Positions 12,403 to 28,842 of a stretch of DNA of 39,224 nucleotides are shown piece after piece. Each line of letters starts with the position of its first letter. Position 1 is the first letter of the stretch. Source of the stretch: Smithella sp. SCADC. GTDB lineage: Bacteria; Desulfobacterota; Syntrophia; Syntrophales; Smithellaceae. The stretch is from assembly GCA_000747625.2 (NCBI GenBank), contig JQDQ01000172.1, positions 1 through 39,224 of the forward strand. The letters run 5' to 3'. The position numbers were made by a program, and so were the translations under genes. A model generated the notes under the pieces. The model searched no databases, was not told the DNA's origin, and worked only from the letters and a program-made list of their open reading frames with translations.

Positions 12403-15400
12403 GTGCTAAAAGATAACGAAAAAGTTGGTGCGGTAATGGTAGTTGGTTCGGGAATCGCCGGTATTCAGGCCTCTCTCGATTTAGCCAATTCCGGAATGAA
12501 AGTTTATCTGGTCGAAAACGGGATCAGCATCGGCGGCGTCATGGCGCAACTGGACAAGACTTTTCCCACAAATGACTGTTCCGCCTGTATATTGTCGCCA
12601 AAACTGGTTGAAGTCGGACGCCATCCCAACGTAGAAATTAAAACACGACGCACTGTCGAATCGGTAGAAGGCGAGCCGGGGAAATTTAAAGTTAAATTAA
12701 CCAGCGCCCCGCGTTTTGTTGATCTGAATAAATGTACAGGATGCGGTGATTGTGCCAATGTTTGTCCGGTTTCCGTAAAAGCCGGATTCAACGGCAATTT
12801 AAGTGAAAGAAAAGCGATCTACCGGCATTTCCCTCAGGCCATTCCCAGCGGTTTTGCCATCGACAAGCTGGGGACATCTCCCTGTAAATCCAATTGTCCG
12901 ACCCATATCAGCGTTCAGGGTTATGTGGCTCTGATCGGCGAAGGCAAATTTAAAGAAGCTCTCAAACTTATCAAACAGGATAATCCTTTCCCCGTCGTCT
13001 GCGGCCGCGTTTGCAACCATCCCTGTGAGACGGCCTGTATGCGGGGCAAAGTGGATGATCCCATCGATATTATGCACCTCAAGCAGTTCGTTGCGGATCT
13101 CGACATGAACAGCGATACCCGTTATCTGCCCGAAAAGAAGGAAAGCAAAGGCAAAAAGGTCGCCGTTATCGGCGCCGGTCCCTCAGGATTGACCTGTGCT
13201 TATTATCTGGCCATTGAAGGCTATGATGTGGAAGTTTTCGAAGCACTACCCGTAGCGGGCGGTTGGATGGCGGTTGGTATTCCCGAATACCGCCTTCCCA
13301 AAAAAGTCCTCAATGCGGAAATCAAGGTCATGGAAGACCTGGGCGTTAAGATTCACCTCAATACAAAAATCGGCAAAGATATTTCTTTTGACAAACTGAA
13401 GTCCGATTATAGCGCGATTTTCATTGGTTGCGGCACCATGAAAAGCAGCAAACTCAATATTCCCGGCGAGGATATGCAGGGCGTGATTCATGGCGTCAAT
13501 TATCTGATGCAGATCAATCTGGGCAAGAAAGTTTCCCTGGGCAACAAGGTCGCCGTCGTCGGCGGTGGTAACGTAGCCATGGATGCTGTGCGGACAGCCG
13601 TCAGAACCGGTTCGAAAGAAGTTTTCATTCTCTATCGCCGGACCCGTGCGGAAATGCCCGCAGCACCCGAAGAAATCGAAGAGGCTATTGAAGAAGGCGT
13701 CGAAATGAAATTCCTCGTTGCTCCCAAGCGCGTTGTAGGCAAGGACGGAAAAGTTACCGGTGTTGAATGTACCCGAATGGAATTAGGCGAACCTGATAAG
13801 AGCGGTCGCCGCCGTCCTGTTGAAATAAAAGGTTCTGAATTTATAGTTGAATGCGATTCTATCGTTCCCGCCATTGGTCAGGAAGCGGATTTATCTTTCA
13901 TTACCAAAGAAAGCGGCGTTTCCATTAATAAGTGGAATAACCTCGATTATGATGAAGTCACTTATGCAACCAATGTTGCCGGAGTTTTCACCGGTGGTGA
14001 CGTGGCTACCGGTCCGCAGACAGTTGTTAAAGCCGTGTTTGCCGGTAAGGAGGCGGCCAAATCCATCAATCGTTATTTGATGGGCGAAGATGTAAAAGCC
14101 GGCCGCGCAAAAGACTGGACCAAAGACCTCGCTGATAAAGCAGATGTTTCCAACGTGGCCAAAGTTCCCCGTGAAAAATATCCTCTCATGAAGCCGGAAG
14201 AACGCAGAACCAATTTCGAGGAAGTCGGTATCGGTTTTGACGAAGCGCAGGCCAAAGCGGAAGCGCTGCGCTGTTTGAATTGCGGTATTTGTTCGGAATG
14301 TTATCAGTGCGTGGATGCCTGTATCGCCAAGGCCATTGACCATGACATGACGATTGAAGAAGAAACCATTGAAGTCGGCGCGGTCATCGCTTCGCCCGGT
14401 TTTGAAATATTCGACGCGCGTCTGCGGGGCGAATTCGGTTACGGCATTTATAAAAATGTTGTTTCGGCGCTTCAGTTTGAAAGAATCCTGTCCGCGTCCG
14501 GTCCTTTCTTCGGTCACGTACAGAGAATCTCCGACGGCAAGGAACCCAAAAAGATCGCCTTTATTCAGTGCGTCGGTTCGCGCGATGTTTCCTGCGACAA
14601 CAGCTGGTGTTCATCTGTTTGCTGTATGTACGCGACCAAGGAAGCGATTATCGCTAAAGAACATGCCAAGGGATTGGAACCGACAATTTTTTACATGGAC
14701 ATTCGCGCTCATGGCAAGGATTTCGACCGTTTTGTCAATCGCGCCAAAGATGAATACGGGATTCGCTATATCCGTTCGATGCCGTCAGTCATTAAAGAAA
14801 TGCAGCAGACGAACAATCTGGTGATGAAATATGTCAATCAGGATGGAACCTTAAACGAAGAAGAATTTGATATGGTCGTTCTGTCCGTCGGTCTCACGCC
14901 GCCCAAGGAAGCCAAAAAGCTGGCTGCCAGCATGGGCATTGATCTGGAAGAGCATGGTTTCTGTAAAACGCAGTTGGAAAATCCTGTTCAGACATCACGC
15001 CCCGGCGTTTTCGTCTGCGGCGCGTTCGGCGGACCTAAAGATATTCCCGAAACGGTTATGGAAGCCTCGGCTGCGGCTGCCTGCGCTGAAGGATTACTGG
15101 CCGCAAGGCGCGGAACGATGATTACTCCGGTAGAAAATCCGGAAGAAAAAGATATGCGCGGAACGGGAGTGCGCACCGGTGTGTTTGTCTGCCATTGCGG
15201 TATCAATATCGGCGGTGTTGTTGATGTTCCCGCTGTTCGTGATTATGCCGCGACACTACCGACGGTTGTATATTCTGCTGATAATTTATTTACCTGTTCG
15301 CAGGATACAGCGGTGAAGATGGCCGAAGTCATCAAGGAAAAAGATCTCACCCGGGTTGTTGTGGCGTCCTGTTCACCCCGCACGCACGAAGGACTTTTCC

Positions 15401-16830
15401 AGGAAAACTGCGAAAAGGCCGGTTTGAACAGATATCTATTTGAGATGGCCAATATCCGCGACCAGGATTCCTGGGTGCATATGCACGAGCCGGAAGCGGC
15501 CACCGAAAAAGCAAAAGATCTGCTGCGCATGGCTGTAGCCAAGGCTCAATACCTGAAACCTTTGAAACCGGGTCAGCTTTCCGTCAATCATCAGGCTTTG
15601 ATTATCGGCGGTGGTTTGGCCGGTATAACGGCGGCTCTGTCACTGGCCGATCAGGGATTTGCTTCTTGCATCGTGGAGAAAGAGGATCGTCTGGGCGGCA
15701 ATTACAATCACCTTTATAAAACCCTGGAAGGCCTTGATGCCAAGGCTCACCTGAAAGGGCTTCTGGAAAAAATTTATAAGAATCCCTTAATTACGGTTGC
15801 CACCGGCGCCAAGATCGATAAGATTGAAGGTTTCATCGGAAATTATAAGACCACAGTCAAGGTCAAGGAAGGCGAAAAAGTATTTGAACACGGCATAGTG
15901 ATTGTGGCCGCCGGTGCTTATGAAAATAAAGTCAAAGAGTATCTCTACGGTGAAAACGCCAAAGTGAAGACGCAAAGAGAGTTGGAAGTTATGATTTACG
16001 AAAAGGACTCCAAGCTTGCCGTTGCGAAAAATATTGTAATGATTCAGTGTGTCGGTTCTCGCGATAAAGAACGACCATGGTGCAGCCGTTACTGCTGTTC
16101 CGAAGCGGTTAAGAACGCGCTCGAACTCAAAGCTGCCGATCCTTCGCGCGACATCACTATCATTTATCGCGATATCCGTACCTTCGCTTTCAAGGAAGAT
16201 TATTACAAGAAAGCACGTGAACTCAATATCAAGTTTATCTCTTATGAAGAAGATCGTAAACCGGAAGTTGTGGCATCAGGAGATAAAGTGGAAGTCAAAG
16301 TATTTGACCCGATTCTTAACGAACAGGTCAATCTGCCTGCTGATATAGTGGCTCTGAGCATCGGTGTTGTGCCGAATCCTGAAAACGCGGCCATCGGCCA
16401 GATGCTGAAAGTGCCCACCAATCAGGACGGTTTCTTCCTGGAAGCGCACGTAAAACTTCGTCCCGTTGATTTCGCGACCGACGGCGTGTTCATGTGCGGC
16501 ATGTCGCATTCGCCCAAGTTCAGTGATGAGACCATTACGCAGGCCAACGCCGCCGTTTCACGCGCCGTCATGGTGCTGTGTCTTGATTTCATCGAGGCGG
16601 AAGGCAAGACAGCTTATGTGAACAAAGAAAGATGTTCTGCCTGCGGTCTCTGCGAAATAAATTGTCCTTATAGTGCAATTCAGGTCAATGTTGCGGAAGG
16701 CTGCGCCGAGGTCAATACCGTTCTTTGCAAGGGTTGCGGTGTTTGCACGGCATCCTGCCGTATGAACGCGGTCGACCTGAACGGTTTCAACAACGAAGAA
16801 GTGCTGGCACAGATATATAATTTAAACTAA
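12403..16830 (+). CDS. HdrA-GltD-HdrA fusion, multi-flavin iron-sulfur hub of Hdr-Flx module 1
   Basis: This 1475-residue protein stacks three flavin units. Residues 1-150: the start of HdrA with an FAD motif VVGSGIAGIQASL, the HdrA-specific CSACILSPKL, and a CTGCGDCANVCP cluster (111-122). Residues about 155-560: a GltD/NfnB-like module with its own Cys-rich N-terminal domain (CKSNCPTH, CGRVCNHPCETACMRG), FAD motif VAVIGAGPSGL (253-263) and NADPH motif VAVVGGGNVAMD. Residues 565-915: the C-terminal half of the first HdrA with CGICSECYQCVDAC. Residues 925-1475: a second HdrA beginning FVCHCGINIGG, with FAD motif ALIIGGGLAGI (about 1064) and paired clusters CSACGLCEINCP and CKGCGVCTASC at the C terminus. 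HdrA is the bifurcating flavin site of Hdr complexes; the GltD insert could give direct NAD(P)H access. The GTG start has an AAAGAGGTG site 7 bases upstream. Bases 12403-21727 run without a large gap and probably form one operon. Confidence 0.88.
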   Translation: MLKDNEKVGAVMVVGSGIAGIQASLDLANSGMKVYLVENGISIGGVMAQLDKTFPTNDCSACILSPKLVEVGRHPNVEIKTRRTVESVEGEPGKFKVKLTSAPRFVDLNKCTGCGDCANVCPVSVKAGFNGNLSERKAIYRHFPQAIPSGFAIDKLGTSPCKSNCPTHISVQGYVALIGEGKFKEALKLIKQDNPFPVVCGRVCNHPCETACMRGKVDDPIDIMHLKQFVADLDMNSDTRYLPEKKESKGKKVAVIGAGPSGLTCAYYLAIEGYDVEVFEALPVAGGWMAVGIPEYRLPKKVLNAEIKVMEDLGVKIHLNTKIGKDISFDKLKSDYSAIFIGCGTMKSSKLNIPGEDMQGVIHGVNYLMQINLGKKVSLGNKVAVVGGGNVAMDAVRTAVRTGSKEVFILYRRTRAEMPAAPEEIEEAIEEGVEMKFLVAPKRVVGKDGKVTGVECTRMELGEPDKSGRRRPVEIKGSEFIVECDSIVPAIGQEADLSFITKESGVSINKWNNLDYDEVTYATNVAGVFTGGDVATGPQTVVKAVFAGKEAAKSINRYLMGEDVKAGRAKDWTKDLADKADVSNVAKVPREKYPLMKPEERRTNFEEVGIGFDEAQAKAEALRCLNCGICSECYQCVDACIAKAIDHDMTIEEETIEVGAVIASPGFEIFDARLRGEFGYGIYKNVVSALQFERILSASGPFFGHVQRISDGKEPKKIAFIQCVGSRDVSCDNSWCSSVCCMYATKEAIIAKEHAKGLEPTIFYMDIRAHGKDFDRFVNRAKDEYGIRYIRSMPSVIKEMQQTNNLVMKYVNQDGTLNEEEFDMVVLSVGLTPPKEAKKLAASMGIDLEEHGFCKTQLENPVQTSRPGVFVCGAFGGPKDIPETVMEASAAAACAEGLLAARRGTMITPVENPEEKDMRGTGVRTGVFVCHCGINIGGVVDVPAVRDYAATLPTVVYSADNLFTCSQDTAVKMAEVIKEKDLTRVVVASCSPRTHEGLFQENCEKAGLNRYLFEMANIRDQDSWVHMHEPEAATEKAKDLLRMAVAKAQYLKPLKPGQLSVNHQALIIGGGLAGITAALSLADQGFASCIVEKEDRLGGNYNHLYKTLEGLDAKAHLKGLLEKIYKNPLITVATGAKIDKIEGFIGNYKTTVKVKEGEKVFEHGIVIVAAGAYENKVKEYLYGENAKVKTQRELEVMIYEKDSKLAVAKNIVMIQCVGSRDKERPWCSRYCCSEAVKNALELKAADPSRDITIIYRDIRTFAFKEDYYKKARELNIKFISYEEDRKPEVVASGDKVEVKVFDPILNEQVNLPADIVALSIGVVPNPENAAIGQMLKVPTNQDGFFLEAHVKLRPVDFATDGVFMCGMSHSPKFSDETITQANAAVSRAVMVLCLDFIEAEGKTAYVNKERCSACGLCEINCPYSAIQVNVAEGCAEVNTVLCKGCGVCTASCRMNAVDLNGFNNEEVLAQIYNLN

Positions 16831-16874: not shown

Positions 16875-17315
16875 ATGGCTGAAAATTTAGCAAACAAAGA
16901 ATGGGTACCGAAAATCGTTGCCGTCGTCTGCAACTGGTGCACATACGCGGGAGCCGATCTGGCTGGTATCAGCAGAATTCAGTATCCGCCGAATGTGCGC
17001 ATTATTCGCGTTCCCTGCACGGGCAGAATCAATCCTTTCTATATAGTGAAAGCCCTGCAGACGGGAGCAGATGGCGTTCTGGTTTCGGGTTGACACCCGG
17101 GTGAATGCCACTATATATCGGGAAATCTGGTGGCGCGCCGCAAGTTTGCGACGTTAAAAAGTTTCCTGAACTACATCGGTGTGGAAGGCGACAGAACCAT
17201 ATTTACCTGGGTTTCCGCCTCCGAAGGTGACAGATGGGCACAGGTCATCAAGGGTGTTACGGAGAAAGTAAAGGCCATGGGACCGGTCGGTAAATTAGTA
17301 AAGAAAATGGGTTAA
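16875..17315 (+). CDS. MvhD/FlxD-like electron-transfer subunit, selenoprotein with in-frame UGA (Sec73)
   Basis: The frame runs from an ATG at 16875 (GGAAGGAGA 4 bases upstream) to 17315, interrupted once by TGA at 17091-17093. Reading the TGA as selenocysteine gives a 146-residue MvhD protein: [29 protein letters not shown], then [19 protein letters not shown] and a normal C-terminal helix region. The paralogue at 25598-26014 has Cys at exactly this position (GGCHPGDCHY), and so does the family in general; it is a [2Fe-2S] ligand site in MvhD. Sequence quality before and after the TGA is equally conserved, arguing against a pseudogene. A hairpin suited to SECIS function starts 13 bases later. 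MvhD passes electrons between the donor enzyme and HdrA. Sec forms are established in methanogens (VhuD). Confidence 0.9.
17107..17134 (+). promoter_or_regulatory. Candidate bacterial SECIS hairpin for the UGA at 17091
   Basis: GCCACTA (17107-17113) pairs with TGGTGGC (17128-17134) through seven pairs, one of them G-U. After a mismatch two further pairs (AT with AT) close a loop of about eight bases, ATCGGGAA, containing three Gs about 27-29 bases after the UGA. Bacterial SECIS elements lie inside the coding region right after the UGA and need a small apical loop with an early G; both fit. The typical bulged U is not obvious, so the fold is a proposal. Confidence 0.55.
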
Positions 17316-17356: not shown

Positions 17357-18367
17357 GTGGAAAACATTGAAACAAAATTACGGGAAGAAGCAAAAAGGCT
17401 GCTTTTGGAAAAGAAGGCCGATGTGATCATCGGTTATGAAATGGGCACGCTTCCATTAACAGCAACGCCCTGCTTTATCACTCAGCCTGCGGAAGCCGAC
17501 AAACTTGTCTGGAATAATCTCTGCACGCAGAATCTGGCCAAGTATGTTCATGACCTGATCAGCGCGCACAAAAATTCACAAAAGCGGGTCAAGCCGGAAG
17601 ACCGGAAGAAAAAAGTCATAGGTGTTGTCGCCCGCGGCTGCACAACCAGATCGCTGATCATTCACCTGCAGGAAAGACAATACGGCCGCGATGAAGTTTA
17701 CATTATCGGCGTTCCCTGCGATGGTTACGTGGACGGCAAAGGTCTGAAAGTGGTCATCGGCGGCGCGGACATCGTGGACGGATCGCTTGACGGCGGCCAG
17801 ATCAAGATGAAAACATCCGACGGCGATAAGACAGTCGTTCTTAAAGATGTGCTGGCGGATTGCTGCAAAACCTGCCGGTTCAACAATCCCATAATTTCCG
17901 ATGTCATGGTAGGGCAGAACGCTCCGGCGATGAATCCCGACGCCGAATACAATGAAGTAAAAGAATTTGAAGCCAAATCAATAGAAGAGCGCTGGGCGTA
18001 TTTCATCAAGGAAATGGAAAAGTGCATGCGCTGCAACGCCTGCCGTCAGGCCTGTCCTTCCTGCTATTGCCCGACCTGTTTTGTGGAACAGAGCCAGCCG
18101 CAGTGGGTGGGCATCGGCGAAGACAAGAGCGACACTCAGGTATTTCAATTGATGCGTCTGTATCATATGGTCGGACGCTGTGTTGATTGCGGCTCCTGCG
18201 TTTCCGTCTGCCCGATGGGCGTTGACCTGCGCAAGTTCCTCAAGAAGATTGACAAGGACGGCTGGGAAATGTTCGGAAGCCGCGCCGGTTCTTCGATGGA
18301 AGATATGCCGCCGCTCGGTAAGTACGATGAACATCATGATAAGGGAGACTTTGTCTACAACCCGTAA
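17357..18367 (+). CDS. Flx-type iron-sulfur protein with two ferredoxin clusters (module 1)
   Basis: This 336-residue soluble protein has an N-terminal domain of about 200 residues without recognised motifs beyond CTTRS and GVPCDGYVD, then a C-terminal bacterial-ferredoxin-like part. That part holds CMRCNACRQACPSCYC with PTCF just after (about residues 223-242) and CVDCGSCVSVCP (about 274-285). It is a clear paralogue of the protein at 26029-26895, sharing the CYCxPCF- and HHLAGRC-type segments and the SMEDMPPL/SMEDKPVL end. In the HdrABC-FlxABCD system two Fe-S subunits link the NAD(H)-binding FlxA to FlxD/MvhD; this protein is best read as one of them, though which Flx letter applies is uncertain. 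It lacks the F420/flavin-binding features of FrhB that I would expect to recognise. The start is GTG after a weak GGGGA site. Confidence 0.78.
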   Translation: MENIETKLREEAKRLLLEKKADVIIGYEMGTLPLTATPCFITQPAEADKLVWNNLCTQNLAKYVHDLISAHKNSQKRVKPEDRKKKVIGVVARGCTTRSLIIHLQERQYGRDEVYIIGVPCDGYVDGKGLKVVIGGADIVDGSLDGGQIKMKTSDGDKTVVLKDVLADCCKTCRFNNPIISDVMVGQNAPAMNPDAEYNEVKEFEAKSIEERWAYFIKEMEKCMRCNACRQACPSCYCPTCFVEQSQPQWVGIGEDKSDTQVFQLMRLYHMVGRCVDCGSCVSVCPMGVDLRKFLKKIDKDGWEMFGSRAGSSMEDMPPLGKYDEHHDKGDFVYNP

Positions 18368-18391: not shown

Positions 18392-18919
18392 ATGGAAACT
18401 TTTCTGGAAGAAGTAAACAAAAAAATACACGGTGTGCCGTTACAGGCCTGTTATCACTGCCGTAAATGCACGGCCGGTTGTCCGATGACCAAGCACATGG
18501 AGTATAACCCCAACAAGGTTATCAAAATGATTCAAAACGGTCAGCGCGACAAGGTGCTCAACAGTTCGACCATCTGGATCTGTCTGTCCTGTGAAACCTG
18601 CATTACGCGCTGTCCCAATAAGGTCGATATTGCCCGGATGATGGATGTGCTGCGGCAGATGGCTATCGAAACCGGTGTCGGAGCCTATGAGAAGAATGTG
18701 TTGAAGTTCCATGAAGCGTTCATCGCCGGCATGAAGAGAGGCGGCCGGATCAACGAACCTATGATGATGGTGGAGTACAAACTCAAGTCCGGAGATCTTT
18801 TCTCTGACGCGATGCTGGGCCTGGATATGTTCATGAAAGGCAAGCTGTCGCTGCTTTCTCCGCGGACAAAAGACATGAAATCGGTTAGAAATATTTTTGA
18901 GAAAACAAAGCACTCGTAA
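18392..18919 (+). CDS. hdrC: Heterodisulfide reductase subunit C-like protein (module 1)
   Basis: This 175-residue HdrC carries two [4Fe-4S] cluster motifs, CYHCRKCTAGCP (about residues 20-31) and CLSCETCITRCP (about 65-76), each followed by a Pro as usual. It ends in a helical C-terminal tail. HdrC wires HdrA to the catalytic HdrB. It lies 24 bases after the preceding gene and 21 bases before hdrB, in the normal hdrC-hdrB order. Length is close to archaeal and bacterial HdrC (about 180). In module 2 the equivalent function is fused to HdrB. Confidence 0.88.
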   Translation: METFLEEVNKKIHGVPLQACYHCRKCTAGCPMTKHMEYNPNKVIKMIQNGQRDKVLNSSTIWICLSCETCITRCPNKVDIARMMDVLRQMAIETGVGAYEKNVLKFHEAFIAGMKRGGRINEPMMMVEYKLKSGDLFSDAMLGLDMFMKGKLSLLSPRTKDMKSVRNIFEKTKHS

Positions 18920-18940: not shown

Positions 18941-19789
18941 TTGAAAGTTTCATACTATCCGGGCTGCTCGCTGCACGCGACGGGAAAAGAATATGATCAG
19001 TCCATGAAGGCTGTCAGTCGTGCCCTCAACATTGAATTGAAAGAAGTTGATGATTGGTCCTGCTGCGGAGCATCGTCCGCGCACAGCACTAATTTCGATC
19101 TGTCCATTGCTCTTTCGGCGCGCAATCTTATCGCCGCGGAAAAAGACGCGATGGATGTCATGGTTCCCTGTGCCGCCTGTTACAATCGTTTTAAAACAGC
19201 GGAACATCATTTAAAAGCCGACAAAGAGCTCAAAGCAAAGATTGAAGGCGTGGTCGGAGCAAAGTATCAGGGCGGCATTAAGATTCGCAATCCCATTGAC
19301 ATTATCTACAATGATATCGGCATTGATGCGCTGATTGCGAAAGTGGTCAAACCGCTGGCCGGACTCAAGCCTGTTTCTTATTACGGTTGTCTTCTGCTTC
19401 GTCCGCCGGAGATTTGCGAATTTGAGAATTATGAAAATCCTTATATGCTGGACAAGATTATGGGTTCAATCGGCGCCGATGTGAAGAACTGGTCTTACAA
19501 GACGGATTGCTGCGGGGGATCGCTCGCGATCAGCAAAACAGCTATTGTTGTTGATATGTGCGACAACCTGATGAGTGCGGCCATAGAGGCTGGAGCAAAC
19601 TGTGTAATAACTGCCTGTCCTCTTTGCATGGCCAACCTGGATATGCGTCCCAGCGAAGGTAAGAAACTGCCGGTGTTCTATTTTACAGAATTGATTTCAT
19701 TGGCCATGGGGCTTTCCGGATCGGCCGATACATTCAAATCTCATATTTTTGATCCGCAACCGCTTTTGAAACAATTGGGGCTGATTTAA
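18941..19789 (+). CDS. hdrB: Heterodisulfide reductase subunit B-like protein (module 1)
   Basis: A 282-residue HdrB. Both cysteine-rich CCG domains are visible: DWSCCGASSAHSTN with the later CAACYNR in the first half, and YYGCLLLRP, TDCCGGSLAIS and CPLCMANL in the second. These bind the unusual non-cubane iron-sulfur clusters that cleave a disulfide in methanogen Hdr. In bacteria the physiological acceptor differs and is not revealed by this sequence; DsrC has been proposed for sulfate reducers. The TTG start is preceded by an AAGGAGG site 8 bases upstream, which fixes it. All CCG cysteines appear intact, so the subunit should be catalytic. Confidence 0.9.
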   Translation: MKVSYYPGCSLHATGKEYDQSMKAVSRALNIELKEVDDWSCCGASSAHSTNFDLSIALSARNLIAAEKDAMDVMVPCAACYNRFKTAEHHLKADKELKAKIEGVVGAKYQGGIKIRNPIDIIYNDIGIDALIAKVVKPLAGLKPVSYYGCLLLRPPEICEFENYENPYMLDKIMGSIGADVKNWSYKTDCCGGSLAISKTAIVVDMCDNLMSAAIEAGANCVITACPLCMANLDMRPSEGKKLPVFYFTELISLAMGLSGSADTFKSHIFDPQPLLKQLGLI

Positions 19790-19850: not shown

Positions 19851-20873
19851 ATGGAAAAACGTTTGATAAAAAAAGATGCTTTAGCGGGCATTGCCAAAAA
19901 AATGGCTGAAAAACTCCTTGTCTGGGCGCCGGTGAAAAAAGAAGATAATATTCTTTTTGAACCACTGCAGAAAAACGCAGAACCAAACTTTGCTTATTTG
20001 AATTCTAAAAACGCTCCGAAAAATGTTTTCTTCCCGCACACGGAAACCATGATGAAATATACCCGTACTCCGAAGGGAATGGTCTTTTCAGCCGAAGAAA
20101 ATAAAGCGAATGAATCGGTGTTGTTTGGTGTACGTCCCTGTGACGCTCATAGTTTTGCCCTGCTCGACAAGCTTTTTGATCAGGAGAAATATAAAGATAC
20201 TTATTACATCACGAAAAGGCAGAGCACAACAGTCATTTCTTTGGCCTGTGTCAAGCCTCCTTACGCGAGTTGCTTCTGCACATCGGTTGATGGCGAACCT
20301 GTTTCTTCGGAAGGCGCAGATATTCTTTTGACAGACATCGGATCCGATTATCTGGCTGAATTCATCACTCCCAAGGGAGAAAAACTGGCCTCTTATTTCG
20401 GTGATGCGAAAGCCGATGCCGCAGCCGATGCGAAGAAAAATGACATTGCGGCCAAGGCCAAGGAAGCGATTACATCCAGGATTCCCGCTCATGAAATCAA
20501 GCCGATTCTGGATAAGAATTTCGACAATCCCTTCTGGAACACGATTCACGGCAAATGTCTGGCCTGCGGCACGTGTACTTATTTATGCCCCACCTGCCAC
20601 TGCTTCGATATCAGCGACGAGGTGAAAGGCAGCGACGGTATCCGCATCCGGTCGTGGGATTCCTGTATGTTCCCTATGTTTACCAGGGAAACATCCGGTC
20701 ATAATCCACGGTCTTCGCAGAAGGAAAGATGGCGTCAGCGTACGATGCATAAGTTCAAATATTACGTGGACATGTTCAATGCCATTGCTTGCGTCGGTTG
20801 CGGCCGTTGCGTTATGTCTTGTCCCGTGAATATTGATATTCGAAAAATTGTTGAAGATATTTCAAAATTATAA
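19851..20873 (+). CDS. Sulfhydrogenase beta/AsrA-like 4Fe-4S dicluster subunit (module 1)
   Basis: A 340-residue iron-sulfur protein of the HydB/AsrA type (sulfhydrogenase beta subunit, anaerobic sulfite reductase A). Landmarks are FFPHTETMMKY (about residues 63-73), VLFGVRPCDAHSF, and two cluster regions, CLACGTCTYLCPTCHCFD (about 236-253) and CVGCGRCVMSCPVNIDI (about 314-330), with SGHNPR between them. In Flx and sulfhydrogenase complexes this subunit relays electrons from the NAD(P)H-binding flavoprotein encoded next door. It is paralogous to 26906-27943. An alanine/lysine/aspartate-rich insertion (about 185-205, AKADAAADAKK) is longer than in the paralogue and probably forms a surface helix. 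Confidence 0.85.
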   Translation: MEKRLIKKDALAGIAKKMAEKLLVWAPVKKEDNILFEPLQKNAEPNFAYLNSKNAPKNVFFPHTETMMKYTRTPKGMVFSAEENKANESVLFGVRPCDAHSFALLDKLFDQEKYKDTYYITKRQSTTVISLACVKPPYASCFCTSVDGEPVSSEGADILLTDIGSDYLAEFITPKGEKLASYFGDAKADAAADAKKNDIAAKAKEAITSRIPAHEIKPILDKNFDNPFWNTIHGKCLACGTCTYLCPTCHCFDISDEVKGSDGIRIRSWDSCMFPMFTRETSGHNPRSSQKERWRQRTMHKFKYYVDMFNAIACVGCGRCVMSCPVNIDIRKIVEDISKL

Positions 20874-20887
20874 TTAGGGAGTTAGTA

Positions 20888-21727
20888 ATGCAAAACCCGT
20901 ATATACCTTATCCTGTAGTGGTGGATAAAATCATTACCGAGGTCGATACCAAAGACATCAAGACCTTTCGTTTCAAATTCGTGAATCCGGAAGATGAACA
21001 GAAATATGCCTACATACCGGGCCAGTTCGGCGAACTTTCCATTTACGGCAAAGGCGAATCGCCCATCGGTATTGCTTCCTCTCCGACGCAAAAAGGCTAC
21101 GTGGAATTCACCGTCCAGAAGGCCGGCGTGGTCACCTCAGCGCTTCATGAAATGGAAGAAGGCACCATGATGGGTCTGCGCGGACCTCTAGGTAATTCCT
21201 GGCCGCTGGAATTTCTGGAAGGAAAAAATATAGTCATCGTCGGCGGCGGATTCGCGTTCACCACATTGCGCTCCCTGATAAATTACATGATTTTCGGCGA
21301 CAACCGTAAACGCTTCGGAAATATCACTGTTATTTACGGTGCAAGAAATCCCGGTTTGCTGCTTTACAAAGATGAATTGATTGAATGGCAAAAAAGAAGT
21401 GATTTGAATATCAATGTTACCGTAGACAAGGGTGACGCAACCTGGAAGGGCAAGGAAGGTTTTGTGCCCGCGGTATGTAAGGAAGTTGCTCCCAGCAAGG
21501 AAAACGCTGTGGCTGTGATCTGCGGTCCTCCCGTGATGATCCGCTTTACATTGCCAGTATTTTTTGATCTGGGTTTCTCCAAGGAAAACATTATTACTTC
21601 TCTGGAAATGAGAATGAAGTGCGGAATCGGCAAGTGCGGCCGCTGCAACGTGGGCGGCAAATATGTCTGCAAAGACGGCCCGGTATTTTCGCTGGCGGAA
21701 TTGGATAAACTGACACCGGAATACTGA
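20888..21727 (+). CDS. FlxA/HydG-like FAD- and NAD(P)-binding reductase subunit (module 1)
   Basis: This 279-residue ferredoxin-reductase-type flavoprotein resembles the sulfhydrogenase gamma subunit, AsrB and FlxA. The FAD-binding beta barrel contains ELSIYGKGESPIGIASSP (about residues 51-68), the nucleotide domain IVIVGGGFAFTTLRSL and VICGPPVMIRF, and the C terminus holds a [2Fe-2S] site CGIGKCGRCNVG with a later Cys (KYVCKDGP). It should exchange electrons with NAD(P)H and pass them to the Fe-S subunits. It starts 14 bases after the preceding gene and closes module 1; its stop codon lies inside the repeat at 21726-21874. It is highly similar to 27982-28842. Confidence 0.9.
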   Translation: MQNPYIPYPVVVDKIITEVDTKDIKTFRFKFVNPEDEQKYAYIPGQFGELSIYGKGESPIGIASSPTQKGYVEFTVQKAGVVTSALHEMEEGTMMGLRGPLGNSWPLEFLEGKNIVIVGGGFAFTTLRSLINYMIFGDNRKRFGNITVIYGARNPGLLLYKDELIEWQKRSDLNINVTVDKGDATWKGKEGFVPAVCKEVAPSKENAVAVICGPPVMIRFTLPVFFDLGFSKENIITSLEMRMKCGIGKCGRCNVGGKYVCKDGPVFSLAELDKLTPEY

Positions 21728-22036: not shown

Positions 22037-23233
22037 ATGTCGCAAACAGTTACACCATATCTGGAAATGTCTCAGGCGATTGTGGATGCAGGTGGTGAGG
22101 CGCTGAAGAAATGTTACCAGTGCGGTACCTGCACGGGAACATGTCCCTGGACGCCGATAACCCATTTTAATATTCGCAAGCTTGTACGATTTGGCCAACT
22201 GGGTATAGATGGAATCGAAGAATATATGTGGGGATGTTCGACCTGCAAATTCTGCGTGGATCGCTGTCCACGGGGCGTAGAAATCATTGACGTGGTTACG
22301 GCGATAAGAAATGTTTACAGCGGCGGCGGAATGCTTCCGCAGAGTCTGCGGGCTTTCGTTGGTTCCATGTCGGCGCGCGGCAATCCCTGGTCCGGCGATC
22401 AGGCAAAAAGAAACGACTGGGCCAAAGAAAAATATCCTATTTATTCCAATGACGCTGAATATCTTTTCTGGACATGCTGCACTGTCTGTTACGATCCCCG
22501 CAATATCAAATTGGCCAAAGCGACCGCTGAAGTATTGAATTTGTCCGGTTTGAAATGGGGAATGCCTTCAGTGGATGTCAACTGCTGTGGTGAGAGTTTG
22601 AGAAAAGTTGGCGATCTGGAGTTGTTTGAAAGACTGAAAAACAACAATCTTCAATATTTCAATAAAAAAGGTGTCAAAAAAATAATTACCGTTTCTCCTC
22701 ACTGCAGGGTTTCTTTTAAAAAGGATTACGGCAATGATTATGAAGTTGCGCACTTTAGCGAGTTAATGGCCAGTCTCATAAAAGAAGGAAAACTTACCCC
22801 CAAGAAAGATTTTGGTGGTCTCAAGGTTACGTATCATGATCCCTGTTATCTGGGCAGGCACAGCGGTGTATACGACGCACCCCGCGATATTCTCAAATCG
22901 ATCCCCGGTATTGATTTTGTGGAGATGGAAAGAAATCGCGAGCAGAGCATGTGCTGCGGCGGCGGCGGCGGCGGACTCTGGATGGAAAAACTCAAAGGCG
23001 AACGTTTAAGCGATCTGAGGATTGAAGAAGCAATGGCGACCGGCGCTACAGTCTTGGCAACGTCTTGTCCGTATTGTATTACCATGTTTGAAGACAGCAG
23101 CCGGACACTCAATGTAGATGAACAAATTAAAATAAAAGATGTGACAGAATTATTTCTGGAGAGCCTGGGCGTCAATATGGAAGAGTTAATGGCAGGTGCT
23201 TCCGGCCTTAACTTTACATGCAAAGCTGATTGA
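22037..23233 (+). CDS. hdrD: HdrC-HdrB fusion (HdrD-like) of module 2
   Basis: A 398-residue fusion with HdrC features at the N terminus and HdrB features after them. The clusters CYQCGTCTGTCP (about residues 26-37) and CSTCKFCVDRCP (about 68-79) are followed by two CCG domains: CCTVCYDPRN with VNCCGESLRKVG, and YHDPCYLGRHSGVYD with MCCGGGGGGLW and CPYCITMF. This is the arrangement of HdrD-type proteins. It would be the disulfide- or acceptor-reducing subunit of module 2. No cytochrome partner (HdrE) is present, so it is probably soluble. An ATG follows a GGGGGAAG site. The gap after it (23234-23400) contains a hairpin repeat. Confidence 0.87.
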   Translation: MSQTVTPYLEMSQAIVDAGGEALKKCYQCGTCTGTCPWTPITHFNIRKLVRFGQLGIDGIEEYMWGCSTCKFCVDRCPRGVEIIDVVTAIRNVYSGGGMLPQSLRAFVGSMSARGNPWSGDQAKRNDWAKEKYPIYSNDAEYLFWTCCTVCYDPRNIKLAKATAEVLNLSGLKWGMPSVDVNCCGESLRKVGDLELFERLKNNNLQYFNKKGVKKIITVSPHCRVSFKKDYGNDYEVAHFSELMASLIKEGKLTPKKDFGGLKVTYHDPCYLGRHSGVYDAPRDILKSIPGIDFVEMERNREQSMCCGGGGGGLWMEKLKGERLSDLRIEEAMATGATVLATSCPYCITMFEDSSRTLNVDEQIKIKDVTELFLESLGVNMEELMAGASGLNFTCKAD

Positions 23234-23400: not shown

Positions 23401-25350
23401 ATGAGCAGAATTGGTGTTTTTGTTTGCCACTGCGGTTTAAATATAGCCAAAACAATTCGGGTGAGCGAACTGGCGCAGTTCGCGGCCACACTGCCGGATG
23501 TTGTTGTTGCCAGGGACTATAAGTTTATGTGTTCAACTCCCGGGCAGGAAATGATCGCCAATGACATTAAAGAACACAAACTGGATCGCGTGATCGTGGC
23601 GGCCTGTTCTCCGCTGATGCATGAGCAGACTTTCCGCAAAGTCATCGAAAACGCCGGCCTGAATAAATACCTTGTAACTATTGTTAATATACGCGAGCAG
23701 GTTTCCTGGGTTACTCACGATATTGAAGAGGGAACGTCCAAAGCCAAAGCTGTACTCAACGGTGCAGTGTACCGGGCAAGGCTTCTTGCTCCGCTTACTT
23801 CCCGCGTTATCGATGTAAATCCCGATGTCATGGTGATCGGTGGCGGTATCGCCGGAATTCAGGCTGCGCTGGAGCTGGCCAATACCGGGAAGAAAGTCTA
23901 TCTCGTTGAGAAAAATTCTACCATTGGCGGGCACATGGCTCAGTTTGACAAAACATTTCCCACGCTGGATTGTTCCGCCTGCATTCTGACTCCCAAGATG
24001 GATGCTGTCCTGCAGCACAAGAATATCACCATGATGACCTATTGCGAAGTGACTGAGGTCAAGGGTTATGTCGGTAATTTCGATATTACCATTAAACAGA
24101 AAGCGCGTTATGTCGATCACAGCAAATGCAACGCCTGTCTGGCCTGCACGGAAAAATGCCCCGGCAAAGGCGTTTCCGAATGGGATGAAGGCCTGGTGAA
24201 AAGGAAGGCTATTTACATTCCTTTCCCGCAGGCTGTACCGCAAAAACCGGTTATTGACAGAGAATCCTGTACTTATTTCATCAAAGGCAAATGTAAGCTC
24301 TGTCAAAAGGTCTGTGAACAAAAAGCGATTGATTACGAACAGCAGGACACCTTTACAACAGTGAAAGCCGGAGCGGTTATCGTGTCCACCGGCTACGATC
24401 TGATGAATACAAAACCGCTTGTTCAATACGGATACGGCAAATATCCGGGCGTATACAGTGCGCTGGAAGTAGAAAGACTCTTTAACTCAGCCGGACCCAC
24501 CGGAGGCAAGGTGACACTACGCGACGGAAAAGAACCGCAGGCCATTGCCATAATGCACTGCATAGGAAGCCGCGATAAAAACAATTATGAACATTGCAGC
24601 CGGGTGTGCTGTATGTATTCGCTCAAATTCTCCCATCTATTCAAAGAAAAAACATCAGCCGATGTTTATCAGTTTTATATTGATATGCGTGCGGCCGGCA
24701 AAGGTTATGAAGAATTTTACAACCGCATCATCGAAGAGGATGTGAAATTCATTCGCGGCAAGGGCGCGCGCGTGGCAGAAAGCGCCGATGAACCCGGACG
24801 TTTGATTGTGGAAGCGGAAGACACGATTACGGGTAAATTTATTAAATTGCCGGTGGATATGGTTGTGCTTTCTCCGGCAATGATTCCACGGGCGGATTCC
24901 AAAGATGTTGCCAGGCTTTTTAATTTGAGCACGGACAAATATGGCTTTTTTATGGAGCGGCATCCTAAACTTGCGCCTCTGTCCACCATGACGGAAGGGA
25001 TTTTTATCGCCGGAGTCTGTCAGAGTCCGAAGGATATTCCCGATACCGTGGCACAGGCCAACGGCGCGGCGGCGGAAGCTTTGACCATTGTTGTGAAAGA
25101 TAAAATGGAGCTGGAAGCGACCACGGCAATGGTCAATCCGGCATCGTGTTGTGCCTGTCAGAATTGTGTGCGGGTCTGTCCCTATGGCGCGCCGTTCTTT
25201 AATGAGCAGAAGGGTGTTTCTGAAATCAATGAGGCGCTGTGCAAAGGTTGCGGTCTTTGCGCCTCGGTCTGCCCCGCTTCGGCGATTATTGCCCGTCATT
25301 TCACCAATGATCAGGTACTTGCCGAAATTGAAGGATTAATGGAGTTTTAG
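23401..25350 (+). CDS. hdrA: HdrA flavoprotein of module 2
   Basis: A 649-residue HdrA of conventional bacterial/archaeal size. Order of elements: an N-terminal domain with FVCHCGLNIAKTI (residues 6-18), FAD motif VMVIGGGIAGIQAAL (about 142), HdrA signature CSACILTPKMD, first cluster CNACLACTEKCP (about 243-254), KCKLCQKVCEQKA, then GSRDKNNYEHCSRVCCMY, and two C-terminal clusters CCACQNCVRVCP and CKGCGLCASVCP. The FAD is the proposed bifurcation site, sending electrons to ferredoxin and to the HdrB part. Unlike its module 1 counterpart there is no GltD insertion and no second HdrA copy. All motif cysteines are cysteine codons, so it is not a selenoprotein. Confidence 0.92.
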   Translation: MSRIGVFVCHCGLNIAKTIRVSELAQFAATLPDVVVARDYKFMCSTPGQEMIANDIKEHKLDRVIVAACSPLMHEQTFRKVIENAGLNKYLVTIVNIREQVSWVTHDIEEGTSKAKAVLNGAVYRARLLAPLTSRVIDVNPDVMVIGGGIAGIQAALELANTGKKVYLVEKNSTIGGHMAQFDKTFPTLDCSACILTPKMDAVLQHKNITMMTYCEVTEVKGYVGNFDITIKQKARYVDHSKCNACLACTEKCPGKGVSEWDEGLVKRKAIYIPFPQAVPQKPVIDRESCTYFIKGKCKLCQKVCEQKAIDYEQQDTFTTVKAGAVIVSTGYDLMNTKPLVQYGYGKYPGVYSALEVERLFNSAGPTGGKVTLRDGKEPQAIAIMHCIGSRDKNNYEHCSRVCCMYSLKFSHLFKEKTSADVYQFYIDMRAAGKGYEEFYNRIIEEDVKFIRGKGARVAESADEPGRLIVEAEDTITGKFIKLPVDMVVLSPAMIPRADSKDVARLFNLSTDKYGFFMERHPKLAPLSTMTEGIFIAGVCQSPKDIPDTVAQANGAAAEALTIVVKDKMELEATTAMVNPASCCACQNCVRVCPYGAPFFNEQKGVSEINEALCKGCGLCASVCPASAIIARHFTNDQVLAEIEGLMEF

Positions 25351-25597: not shown

Positions 25598-26014
25598 ATG
25601 GATTTTGAACCGAAAATATTAGGCATAGCCTGCAACTGGTGCACCTATACCGGAGCGGATCTGGCCGGAACAACCAGGTTGCACTATCCGCAGAATCTTC
25701 GTGTCGTGCGCGTGATGTGTTCCAGTCGCATCAATCCTTCATTTATATTCCGAGCTTTTCAACTGGGTGCGGACGGTGTCCTGGTCGGCGGCTGTCATCC
25801 GGGCGATTGCCATTACAATACAGGTAATCTCTACGCGCGCAGAAGGCTGGCTGTGACCAAAAAAATACTGGAGTTTGCGGGTATCGAGCCGGGAAGATTC
25901 CGCGTGGAGTGGATTTCCGCCTCCGAGGGCAACAAATTCGCCGAGGTTGTTACCGAGTTTACCGAGCAGGTGAAAAACCTGGGTCCCCAGACCAAGTTTA
26001 AGATTTCACAATAG
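25598..26014 (+). CDS. MvhD/FlxD-like electron-transfer subunit, cysteine form (module 2)
   Basis: A 138-residue MvhD protein. Conserved parts are ACNWCTYTGADLAG (residues 11-24), VMCSSRINPSFI, and VLVGGCHPGDCHYNTGNL, whose first Cys (Cys66) aligns with Sec73 of the module 1 copy. The C-terminal half EWISASEGNKFAEVV is also shared. It should ferry electrons between the Flx subunits and HdrA. The ATG has a GAAAGGAAAG site just upstream. Fifteen bases separate its stop codon from the start of the next gene, indicating co-transcription. Confidence 0.92.
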   Translation: MDFEPKILGIACNWCTYTGADLAGTTRLHYPQNLRVVRVMCSSRINPSFIFRAFQLGADGVLVGGCHPGDCHYNTGNLYARRRLAVTKKILEFAGIEPGRFRVEWISASEGNKFAEVVTEFTEQVKNLGPQTKFKISQ

Positions 26015-26028
26015 TGTTGGGAGAAAAT

Positions 26029-26895
26029 ATGGTTATCAGCTTTAAGAGCATCGAAGAAAATCTGAAAACGGAAGCCAAAAAACTTCTGGAGTCCGGCCGG
26101 GTAAGTATTGTGCTGGCCTATGGGAAGGGTTATGATGATCAGCATCCCCTGCCTTATGTCGCCAGAAAAACTTCCGACATAGAAAATATCATATTTAATG
26201 AATACTGCACAGCCAATATGGCGCGTTATCTTGTTCGTTATCCGCGCGGCACCAAAATCGCCATTGCAGTCAGGGCGGCGGATAGCCGTGCTGTTATTCA
26301 GCTTATTCAGGAAGATAAGGTCAAACGCGATGATCTGGTAGTTATGGGCATTCCGGTATACGGAATGAAGAATTTTAAAACCGGCGAAATTATCGACAGT
26401 AAAACCACCTGCGGGATTTATAATCCGGCGCTTTACGATATCCTGCTGGGCGAGGAAGTACACGGTCAACCCGTGGTTTCTCCCTACGATGTTCTTGCCG
26501 AAAATGAAAACATGGATAAGGAAGCGCGCTGGGCTTTCTGGAAGAAGGAACTGGATCGTTGCATACGGTGTTATGCCTGCCGCAAAGCCTGTCCGATGTG
26601 CTACTGCGACCCCTGCTTTATCGATCAGAACAAACCCAAGTGGGGCGAAAAATCTCCGGAATCGCACGGCAACCTCATGTATCATCTGACCAGGTTTCAT
26701 CATCTGGCCGGCCGCTGTATCGATTGCGGTGAATGTTCACGCGCCTGCCCCGTAGACATTCCGCTTTATCTGTTCCACAAAAAAGTGGCGAAGGAATGCG
26801 AGGAGATGTTCGGTCAGGCGGCGGGCATGAGCATGGAAGACAAGCCCGTACTGGTGAATTTCCGAGTGGATGATTCCGATAAAATTCTGGAATAA
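26029..26895 (+). CDS. Flx-type iron-sulfur protein with two ferredoxin clusters (module 2)
   Basis: A 288-residue paralogue of 17357-18367. The N-terminal domain lacks known motifs; the C-terminal part carries CIRCYACRKACPMCYC with DPCF after it (about residues 180-199) and CIDCGECSRACPVDI (about 234-248), then SMEDKPVLVNF. I chose the ATG at 26029 because a GGGAGA site lies 5 bases upstream; a reading from 26014 would overlap the stop of mvhD. It is shorter than the module 1 copy, mainly within the N-terminal domain. The position between mvhD and the sulfhydrogenase-beta-like gene is the same as in module 1 apart from the absent separate hdrC and hdrB. Confidence 0.8.
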   Translation: MVISFKSIEENLKTEAKKLLESGRVSIVLAYGKGYDDQHPLPYVARKTSDIENIIFNEYCTANMARYLVRYPRGTKIAIAVRAADSRAVIQLIQEDKVKRDDLVVMGIPVYGMKNFKTGEIIDSKTTCGIYNPALYDILLGEEVHGQPVVSPYDVLAENENMDKEARWAFWKKELDRCIRCYACRKACPMCYCDPCFIDQNKPKWGEKSPESHGNLMYHLTRFHHLAGRCIDCGECSRACPVDIPLYLFHKKVAKECEEMFGQAAGMSMEDKPVLVNFRVDDSDKILE

Positions 26896-26905
26896 GGAGC
26901 TCTTT

Positions 26906-27943
26906 GTGTTAAAGAAAACAGCAATTCAAAAAATATCCGATCTGACTGCACAACTGATGGCGAAGGGAACGCTGATTGCTCCTGTTAAGGAAGAAGCGGG
27001 CTTCAATTTCCGCCAGATTTCCGATGCCAGGCAGGTGGATCTGAATTTCTACAATACGCTGATGAGTCCCAAATCGGCTTTCTTTCCGCAGACGGAGGAT
27101 TTTGTTCGTTATGATAAAAACAAATCCGTTCTGGATGCGCAGTGTGTGGATTTGAAACCGGGACCGGTTTTTCTCTTTGGCGTACGCCCCTGTGATGTGA
27201 AAAGCTTTGAAATCATGGATATTCATTTTTCCGGTACGGGTGCAGTTGATCCGTACTGGAAGAAAAGAAGAGAAACCGCGACCATCTTCGGTTACGCCTT
27301 TGATTTAAATTCTCCTGCCGGCCCGGCGGATTTCTATCAGACGCTGGGAATAGGCGCGGCGGATCCCGAAGGCAGCGACATCTTCATGATTAAAAAAGGC
27401 GATGAACTGCTTTTAAAAGCTATCACGCCCAAAGGAGAAAAGCTGCTGGCCGGATTAAGTTCGCTAGCGGACGCTGCAGCGGATGAACAGAAGTATTTTG
27501 ATGATACAATTGCCGCGGGACGTTCGTTCAAAACACGTTCTACCTGTGTGGACGCGAAAGTTATTGCCAAAAAGCTGGAAGATATTTTCCATAAGACGGA
27601 GTTTTGGGAAAAGGTTTCCGATGCCTGCTTAAGCTGTGGTGTCTGTACTTTTGTCTGTCCCACCTGTTACTGCTTTGATATTTGCGATGAGACGCTCTTC
27701 AGTCATGGTGTCCGCCGCCGGGTTTGGGACGCTTGCACGTTTACTGATTTCACGCTGGAGGCGAGCGGCCACAATCCCCGGACAAAGGTTTATCAGCGCC
27801 TGCGTCAGAAAATATGTCATAAATATTCATTCCACATCAGAAAATACGGTGTTATTTCTTGTGTCGGTTGCGGTCGTTGCACGCGTAACTGTCCGGTGAA
27901 TATTGATATTTTCTCGATCGTGGATCAGGCTTTGAAGGAATAA
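26906..27943 (+). CDS. Sulfhydrogenase beta/AsrA-like 4Fe-4S dicluster subunit (module 2)
   Basis: A 345-residue paralogue of 19851-20873 with the same landmarks: FFPQTEDFVRY, FLFGVRPCDVKSFE, clusters CLSCGVCTFVCPTCYCFD (about residues 241-258) and CVGCGRCTRNCPVNIDI (about 318-334), and SGHNPR. The GTG start at 26906 is supported by an AAGGAG site 6 bases upstream; an upstream in-frame ATG at 26870 lies inside the preceding gene and is unlikely. A shorter acidic/alanine linker replaces the KAD-rich insertion of the module 1 protein. Its role should be electron relay between the FAD subunit and MvhD/HdrA. Confidence 0.86.
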   Translation: MLKKTAIQKISDLTAQLMAKGTLIAPVKEEAGFNFRQISDARQVDLNFYNTLMSPKSAFFPQTEDFVRYDKNKSVLDAQCVDLKPGPVFLFGVRPCDVKSFEIMDIHFSGTGAVDPYWKKRRETATIFGYAFDLNSPAGPADFYQTLGIGAADPEGSDIFMIKKGDELLLKAITPKGEKLLAGLSSLADAAADEQKYFDDTIAAGRSFKTRSTCVDAKVIAKKLEDIFHKTEFWEKVSDACLSCGVCTFVCPTCYCFDICDETLFSHGVRRRVWDACTFTDFTLEASGHNPRTKVYQRLRQKICHKYSFHIRKYGVISCVGCGRCTRNCPVNIDIFSIVDQALKE

Positions 27944-27981
27944 CGCGAGAAAGAGTACGAAATAAAAATTTGAGGATAAAT

Positions 27982-28842
27982 ATGTGTTCAAATAATCCAT
28001 ACATTCCCATGCCGGTGGAGATAATCAAAATCATCGACGAAGTGGAAACCCATGACATCAAGTCGTTTCGTCTGAAATTTTTGAATAAAGAGGATGAAGC
28101 CAAATTCAATTATCTGCCCGGTCAGTTTTCCGAACTATCCATTTACGGTAAGGGCGAGTCCCCCATCGGGATTGCCTCGTCGCCGACCGACGCAGGTTAT
28201 GTGGAATTCACTGTTCAGCGGGCGGGCGCCATACAACCGGGTTTAGTGACGGCGGCTCTGCACGATATGGATGAAGGCGCCAAAATAGGCCTGCGCGGAC
28301 CGCTGGGCAATTCCTGGCCGATTGAATTTTTAGAGAAGAAGAACATTGTGGTCGTGGGCGGCGGATTTGCTTTCACGACTTTGCGTTCTCTAATCAACTA
28401 TATGCTGCATAAAGATAATCGCTCACGCTTTGGCGAAATCACGGTAATTTACGGCGCTAGAACTCCCGGTTTGCTTTTGTATAAAGATGAACTTGCGGCC
28501 TGGGAAAAAAGAGATGATATCAAAACCATCATTACCGTGGATAAGGGTGATGAAACCTGGAAGGGCAGGGAAGGCTTCGTTCCCGCCGTATGTAAGGATG
28601 TCGCGCCGTCACCGAAAAATGCGGTAGCCGTTATTTGCGGTCCTCCGGTTATGATAAAATTCACTCTGCCGGTATTTTTTGAATTGGGTTTTTCCAAGGG
28701 AAATATCCTGACGTCACTGGAAATGCGGATGAAATGCGGTATCGGCAAATGCGGCCGCTGCAACGTTGGTTCTAAGTATGTCTGTTCCGATGGTCCGGTA
28801 TTTTCTCTGGCCGAACTCGACGAACTGCCCAGAGATTTTTAG
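27982..28842 (+). CDS. FlxA/HydG-like FAD- and NAD(P)-binding reductase subunit (module 2)
   Basis: A 286-residue paralogue of 20888-21727, sharing most residues. It has the FAD motif ELSIYGKGESPIGIASSP, nucleotide-binding VVVGGGFAFTTLRSL and VICGPPVMIKF, and the [2Fe-2S] site CGIGKCGRCNVG with a later Cys. A small insertion (GAIQPGLV, about residues 75-85) distinguishes it. The ATG at 27982 follows TTGAGGAT; an upstream in-frame TTG at 27970 lacks a ribosome site. It closes module 2, so the two modules end with nearly the same gene. Confidence 0.9.
   Translation: MCSNNPYIPMPVEIIKIIDEVETHDIKSFRLKFLNKEDEAKFNYLPGQFSELSIYGKGESPIGIASSPTDAGYVEFTVQRAGAIQPGLVTAALHDMDEGAKIGLRGPLGNSWPIEFLEKKNIVVVGGGFAFTTLRSLINYMLHKDNRSRFGEITVIYGARTPGLLLYKDELAAWEKRDDIKTIITVDKGDETWKGREGFVPAVCKDVAPSPKNAVAVICGPPVMIKFTLPVFFELGFSKGNILTSLEMRMKCGIGKCGRCNVGSKYVCSDGPVFSLAELDELPRDF

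Follow-up and report, generated by a model that had tools for sequence, protein, structure and literature searches.

Selenocysteine (Sec) in MvhD subunits has previously been described in Desulfobacterium autotrophicum HRM2, in which mvhD1, 2, 3 and 5 occur with HdrL and with cysteine (Cys) paralogues and for which replacement by Cys forms under selenium limitation was already suggested (2009; PMC2702500). The selenoproteins of a marine deltaproteobacterium also include a methyl-viologen-reducing hydrogenase (PMC8318568), and structures from methanogens show that the [2Fe-2S] cluster of MvhD, like that of its homologue ElpC, lies close to the bifurcating FAD in HdrA (PMC12350162). The locus described here resembles those of HRM2 MvhD and Methanococcus VhuD in that Sec occurs in the MvhD subunit, next to genes encoding HdrA or HdrL fusions and in a genome with Cys paralogues, but differs from the CxxU motif given for the MvhD family in a 2026 review (PMC13188914): Sec is found here at residue 73 (G-U-HPGEC), whereas CxxU fits residue 22. 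Sec MvhD is thus already known in such bacteria and the present data extend the family.

Two other systems are relevant to this locus. In M. maripaludis, the LysR-type regulator HrsM represses Cys isogenes at adequate selenium and the yedE transcript increases upon selenium depletion (PMC11097638); HrsM is an orthologue of LysR_Se which, together with YedE, YedF and DUF3343, belongs to the known selenium genes (PMC5322559). The situation found here is similar to this HrsM switch of Methanococcus (frc/vhc operons) in having a LysR_Se-family regulator, a Cys isoform of an Hdr-linked electron-transfer protein and yedE, and differs from it in being bacterial, in involving a single orphan subunit instead of a whole hydrogenase operon and in placing an opal tRNA-Cys behind the same box. 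Binding by the regulator and the direction of control are predicted here by analogy. The second system is the selC* tRNA-Cys of anaerobic bacteria, which has an 8/4-like fold, a U73 and a UCA or GCA anticodon, is similar to tRNA-Sec and, in Syntrophobacterales, is followed downstream by a selB* gene (PMC7609411); PMC8762117 and PMC5424206 gave nothing on selC* for the terms used.

The mvhD1 locus and its in-frame TGA

The window, i.e. the whole stretch of DNA that was analysed (39,224 nt), corresponds to an entire contig (C169) of a Smithella-like bin of 3.19 Mb (designated G000) with 94.7% completeness and 8.2% contamination. Two adjacent modules were delineated in it, with the following features:

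12403..16830, + strand: HdrL-type fusion of a GltD-like NAD(P)/FAD domain and HdrA, 1475 aa, module 1 (adjoins MvhD1 in relatives)
16875..17315, + strand: mvhD1, MvhD/FlpD subunit, predicted selenoprotein with Sec73 (frame, Pfam match, TGA kept in relatives)
17091..17093, + strand: UGA codon, best read as selenocysteine (same codon in 23 of 60 genomes)
17107..17134, + strand: predicted bSECIS hairpin, GCCACUA..UCUGGUGGC (consensus fold; 8-nt loop ca. 23-24 nt after the UGA)
17357..18367, + strand: 4Fe-4S protein, module 1 (domain match; gene order conserved)
18392..18919, + strand: HdrC-like protein, module 1 (sequence similarity)
18941..19789, + strand: HdrB-like protein with two CCG domains, module 1 (domain match and similarity)
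19851..20873, + strand: AsrA/ShyB-like Fe-S subunit, module 1 (similarity)
20888..21727, + strand: AsrB/HydG-like FAD/NAD(P)-binding subunit, module 1 (similarity)
22037..23233, + strand: HdrCB-like fusion, start of module 2 (domain match and similarity)
23401..25350, + strand: HdrA, module 2 (similarity)
25598..26014, + strand: mvhD2, Cys paralogue (Cys66) 53% identical to MvhD1, module 2 (alignment)
26014..26895, + strand: 4Fe-4S protein, module 2 (domain match)
26870..27943, + strand: AsrA/ShyB-like Fe-S subunit, module 2 (similarity)
27970..28842, + strand: AsrB/HydG-like FAD/NAD(P)-binding subunit, module 2 (similarity)

The full gene order of both modules is also found in G003 and G008. 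With an MvhD/FlxD-like subunit and AsrA/AsrB-like NAD(P) subunits next to Hdr genes, this gene set is comparable to the NADH-linked Flx-Hdr complexes (FlxABCD-HdrABC); module 1 differs from these by its HdrL fusion and its Sec MvhD.

The mvhD1 frame extends from an ATG at 16875 to a TAA at 17313-17315 and encodes 146 residues including Sec73. An earlier note on this DNA had pointed to an in-frame TGA (17091-17093) with MvhD-like sequence on both sides, and coordinates and codon are as claimed: when read through the TGA, the product covers 123 of the 123 positions of Pfam FlpD (PF02662) with 173.6 bits (cut-off 22.3; E 2e-51). Its Cys/Sec positions 19, 22, 48, 73 and 78 align with Cys residues of solved MvhD chains (5odc_D, 7bkb_F); four of the five would bind the [2Fe-2S] cluster, and residue 73, taken for a cluster ligand in the earlier note, is a candidate for this role. 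MvhD1 is a predicted subunit of the MvhD family, encoded next to HdrL, for which [2Fe-2S] binding and contact with HdrA are expected by homology.

Searching 60 genomes, including G000, with PF02662 returned 29 TGA-containing FlpD matches, 24 of which have the TGA at residue 73. These occur in 23 genomes that all belong to the same family as G000 (four of the genes, in G019, G029 and twice in G027, run off contig ends), meaning that the UGA of mvhD1 is kept across a family of syntrophs. The other five, found in four order-level genomes (G045 twice, G046, G048 and G053; loci L139, L208, L209, L210 and L212), have the TGA in a different MvhD, at its residue 22, where it corresponds to the second Cys of a CNWC motif (CxxU), so that two different Cys positions of the family take TGA.

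Two unusual frames were detected besides. In G007 (L136), the mvhD frame continues after TGA73 without a stop into the expected next gene, giving 483 codons and a possible fusion, and in another proteobacterial bin a longer MvhD-type frame (L091 11023) likewise has a TGA at the G-U-HxGEC position.

Selenocysteine machinery and the region downstream of the UGA

The Sec machinery that a selenoprotein reading implies was recovered from G000 for the most part: selB (376.8 bits versus a cut-off of 242, with a single SelB above cut-off), a selD that is itself in the Sec form with its own TGA within SAGUACKIG, and a tRNA-Sec with a UCA anticodon. The missing part is selA, which was not found in this 94.7% complete bin though it is present in 57 of the 60 genomes (absent from G000, G006 and G013). 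tRNA-Sec scoring above 70 bits occurs in all 23 genomes with TGA73 and in 50 of the 60 overall. One strong selB-family match (L002) was rejected, its sequence and ribosomal neighbours identifying it as EF-Tu.

A consensus fold downstream of the UGA has an energy of -10.4 kcal/mol for 15 Sec-type sequences versus -0.3 and -2.0 for two Cys groups of 22 sequences each. This comparison across sequences was used because single-sequence folding is too weak, three such folds of the hairpin having no excess over shuffles (z -1.74, -0.04 and -0.08), while the stem varies too little for covariation to be seen; scanning the window with Rfam at gathering thresholds gave no match. Synonymous diversity of the Sec group (21 distinct sequences) is 0.114 in the 24 codons following the UGA versus 0.299 elsewhere, the corresponding values being 0.589 and 0.507 in one Cys group (22 sequences) and 0.509 and 0.456 in the other (23 sequences). 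Moreover, 15 of these 24 codons are invariant in the Sec group versus 12 of 92 elsewhere. The hairpin and the synonymous constraint are particular to the TGA group and the former is a predicted bSECIS. Together with the Sec machinery and the conservation of the TGA among relatives, they strongly support the proposal of the earlier note that 16875-17315 encodes a selenocysteine MvhD, and UGA 17091 most likely specifies selenocysteine.

The orphan Cys twin and a shared upstream box

Another mvhD gene of G000, located on contig C165 (5692-6144), has TGT at codon 73 and a product 89% identical to MvhD1. To judge from these identities, it is this gene, and not the neighbouring mvhD2, that is the closer Cys counterpart of MvhD1. 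It is referred to as an orphan, defined by the lack of HdrL within 3-6 kb or within the contig fetched around the gene. Orphan Cys twins occur in seven genomes (G000, G001, G002, G011, G016, G024 and G033), all of which also have a Sec MvhD1. For every orphan, the best match is another orphan and not the Sec gene of its own genome; recent derivation from the latter was therefore rejected and the Sec/Cys pair seems older than these species. The MvhD protein tree itself has little resolution, with 28 of its 39 inner branches left open. The orphan was found in 7 of the 23 Sec genomes versus none of 10 with a Cys-type MvhD1 (Fisher p 0.07; HdrL context covered three of these ten; the partial matches of G014 and G025 were left out), a distribution that is no more than suggestive of a link with Sec MvhD1. 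Given the 8.2% contamination of the bin, a foreign origin of contigs C165 and C241 is conceivable.

On C165, the orphan lies beside a Cys-form HesB-like gene (L020 904-1221) and a Cys-form formate dehydrogenase gene (L026 313-4202), two families with known selenoprotein members. A "selenium-free island" was considered and set aside, as C165 has only one match to the box described below, which is located in the HesB-orphan interval and oriented towards the orphan.

A search for a sigma-70-like promoter upstream of the orphan gave no match. All seven orphan upstream regions share an element resembling GAATAAT-N13-ATTCCTTTTAGTTATTTGAC, located 84-86 bases before the start, the left half of which is weak in G011, G016 and G033. 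These seven regions yielded a matrix with which 1.57 Mb of fetched sequence was scanned (threshold 9). The best non-orphan match falls in G000, in the promoter separating a LysR gene from a second-class tRNA, and the following ones are mostly further islands of this type, with unrelated loci appearing below a score of ca. 16; yedE sites in L189, L191 and L195 scored below the threshold. The G000 LysR, the one LysR scanned, matches NF040786 (LysR_Sec_metab) with 274.6 bits versus a cut-off of 250.

The pattern ATTMCTTTTAKKDATTTG was further searched in 18 plus 24 genomes (42). Allowing up to one mismatch gave 57 matches versus 18 for a reversed-pattern control. The perfect matches amount to 23, of which 22 precede yedE (12, with a box-to-start spacing of +71-76), a selC* divergent from LysR_Se (5) or an orphan (5, with a spacing of +85-86), the last one being located in G012 without such a gene. 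The 34 one-mismatch matches are mostly background: one has no locus, and 13 of the 33 others lie near selenium-locus genes or MvhD1. Since the pattern was built in part from loci that it later found, the independent support consists of the lack of perfect matches elsewhere (apart from that in G012) and of seven yedE sites unseen when the pattern was built (G000 C243, G005, G017, G018, G022, G029 and G032). In G000, the box has four matches, namely before the orphan, before yedE, between LysR_Se and selC* and, with one mismatch, at a double-cubane/yedF island that holds the second selC*-type tRNA copy. As in an HrsM-type regulon, a DNA element is thus common, at the sequence level, to a Cys isogene and to selenium genes, and it links the Cys twin, a predicted selenium transporter (the yedE product) and an opal tRNA-Cys to one selenium-linked regulator gene. 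No report of this box and of its link to an orphan Cys MvhD and an opal tRNA-Cys was found in the open-access papers searched; Mukai et al. 2017 may contain part of it.

In G001, boxes with one mismatch flank a 5'-truncated MvhD1 fragment on contig C75 (L252/L256), which is followed by a HesB-like gene and looks like a decayed second orphan.

In the reading that best accounts for these data, to which a probability of about two in three is given, SelB would deliver Sec-tRNA-Sec to UGA 17091, directed by the bSECIS hairpin just downstream, and MvhD1 would pass electrons between the NAD(P)-linked module and the HdrL/HdrA-type flavoprotein, a function assigned by homology. LysR_Se would bind the box common to the orphan, yedE and the divergent LysR_Se/selC* promoter and, upon selenium shortage, would turn these targets on, so that Cys-MvhD made from the orphan would replace Sec-MvhD in the same complex. 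The adjacent Cys MvhD belongs to a second module, the close selenium-independent counterpart being the orphan on C165. We infer here Sec insertion as the normal reading of the UGA, LysR_Se as the binder, induction upon selenium shortage and exchange of the subunit, the direction of the regulon being taken from the repression of Cys isogenes by HrsM at adequate selenium and from the rise of yedE upon depletion in M. maripaludis. The selenium-dependent expression raised by the earlier note for the two modules is plausible for the C165 orphan and finds no such backing in the modules themselves, neither the matrix nor the pattern having any match in the 39,224-nt window.

The selC*-type tRNAs and the adjacent Cys paralogue

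Two second-class tRNAs with a UCA anticodon, an 8-bp acceptor, a 4-bp T stem and U73 but no encoded CCA occur in G000. Among the 60 genomes, 26 such selC*-type genes were found in 25 (scores above 63 bits), six further matches to the selC* model near 49 bits being canonical tRNA-Sec. Those matches to RF01852 that proved to be tRNA-Ser, other tRNAs or canonical tRNA-Sec cut by a contig end (L204 and L206) had been excluded before the selC* model was built. All 26 genes have U73 and 24 have UCA, with the cysteine anticodon GCA in G046 and neither of the two in G019; anticodons of copies that had no ARAGORN call were read by eye, and the 8/4 fold was inspected in the two G000 copies. These tRNAs fit selC* tRNA-Cys in fold, U73 and anticodon, and charging with Cys would be expected from their identity elements. 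They differ from those described by the single selB above cut-off in G000 and by their neighbours, which include LysR_Se, YedE-like and DUF3343-like genes (YedE and DUF3343 being named by resemblance), together in some islands with YedF, a cysteine desulfurase and a double-cubane reductase. In the G000 tRNA island, a radical SAM gene, probably ArsS (L022 5794-6935), is truncated next to a rhodanese-like gene, its copy in G002 (L220) being longer.

Such a tRNA could itself decode UGA 17091, which would then be read as Cys either always or in selenium shortage. Two opal copies with the selC* features in G000, the breadth of the family, its frequent location in selenium-metabolism islands and a perfect box before the gene in five genomes all speak for this possibility. 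However, ten of the 23 TGA73 genomes show no selC*, seven of these ten being at least 95% complete, whereas tRNA-Sec occurs in every one of the 23; these absences were scored with stricter filters and some bins are incomplete. Conversely, 12 genomes with selC* show no TGA73. A selC*-type tRNA does not seem to be needed for mvhD1 and is unlikely to be the normal reader of its UGA. The lack of UCA in the G019 copy, the replacement of U33 by C in three copies (G009, G011 and G014; loci L284, L286 and L203) and the single SelB of G000 point in the same direction, and reading as Cys is overall considered unlikely. The C33 copies and L288, which lacks UCA, may reflect decay or a role outside translation.

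With Sec retained as the normal reading, selC* may still have a place in the regulon. A selC*-type tRNA was detected in five of the seven orphan genomes, within ca. 4 kb of the orphan in G011, G016 and G033, and was not seen in G001 and G024. It is tentatively conceivable that LysR_Se governs a starvation programme that would combine more YedE, the substitution of Cys-MvhD for Sec-MvhD and an opal tRNA-Cys allowing UGA to be read as Cys. The shared box thereby offers a concrete and testable role for selC* tRNA-Cys: if true, selenium supply would decide whether the bacterium reads UGA as Sec or as Cys, and its selenoprotein genes would stay usable without selenium.

The earlier note had rightly placed Cys66 of the paralogue at 25598-26014 in the Sec73 column, as borne out by alignment, and had further regarded the two adjacent modules as a Sec/Cys pair, whose complexes may differ in redox potential or oxygen sensitivity. 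That mvhD2 acts as the selenium-status substitute of Sec MvhD agrees with its belonging to the same family and contig and with the distance of ca. 8.2-8.7 kb between the two genes in 12 of the 60 genomes searched, including G000. Yet it is only 53% identical to MvhD1, its module comes with a separate HdrA and separate NAD-type subunits, and no MvhD2-type gene is among the 29 TGA matches. In addition, MvhD1 beside HdrL is in the Cys form in G021, G022 and G026, and MvhD2 is present together with it in G021 and G022; this, with the lack of TGA in its type, makes MvhD2 unlike a spare for MvhD1. As the box is also absent from the window, a pairing of the two modules is not well supported and a substitute role for mvhD2 is highly improbable.

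Finally, the TGA might be an assembly error or a stop that has arisen early in the frame of a decaying gene, for which the missing selA of G000 might speak. This can be dismissed, as the 29 TGA-containing matches exclude chance or sequencing error and the same error would have to have recurred in 23 genomes, whose 24 genes have the TGA at the same codon, a frame that continues beyond it and synonymous constraint after it.
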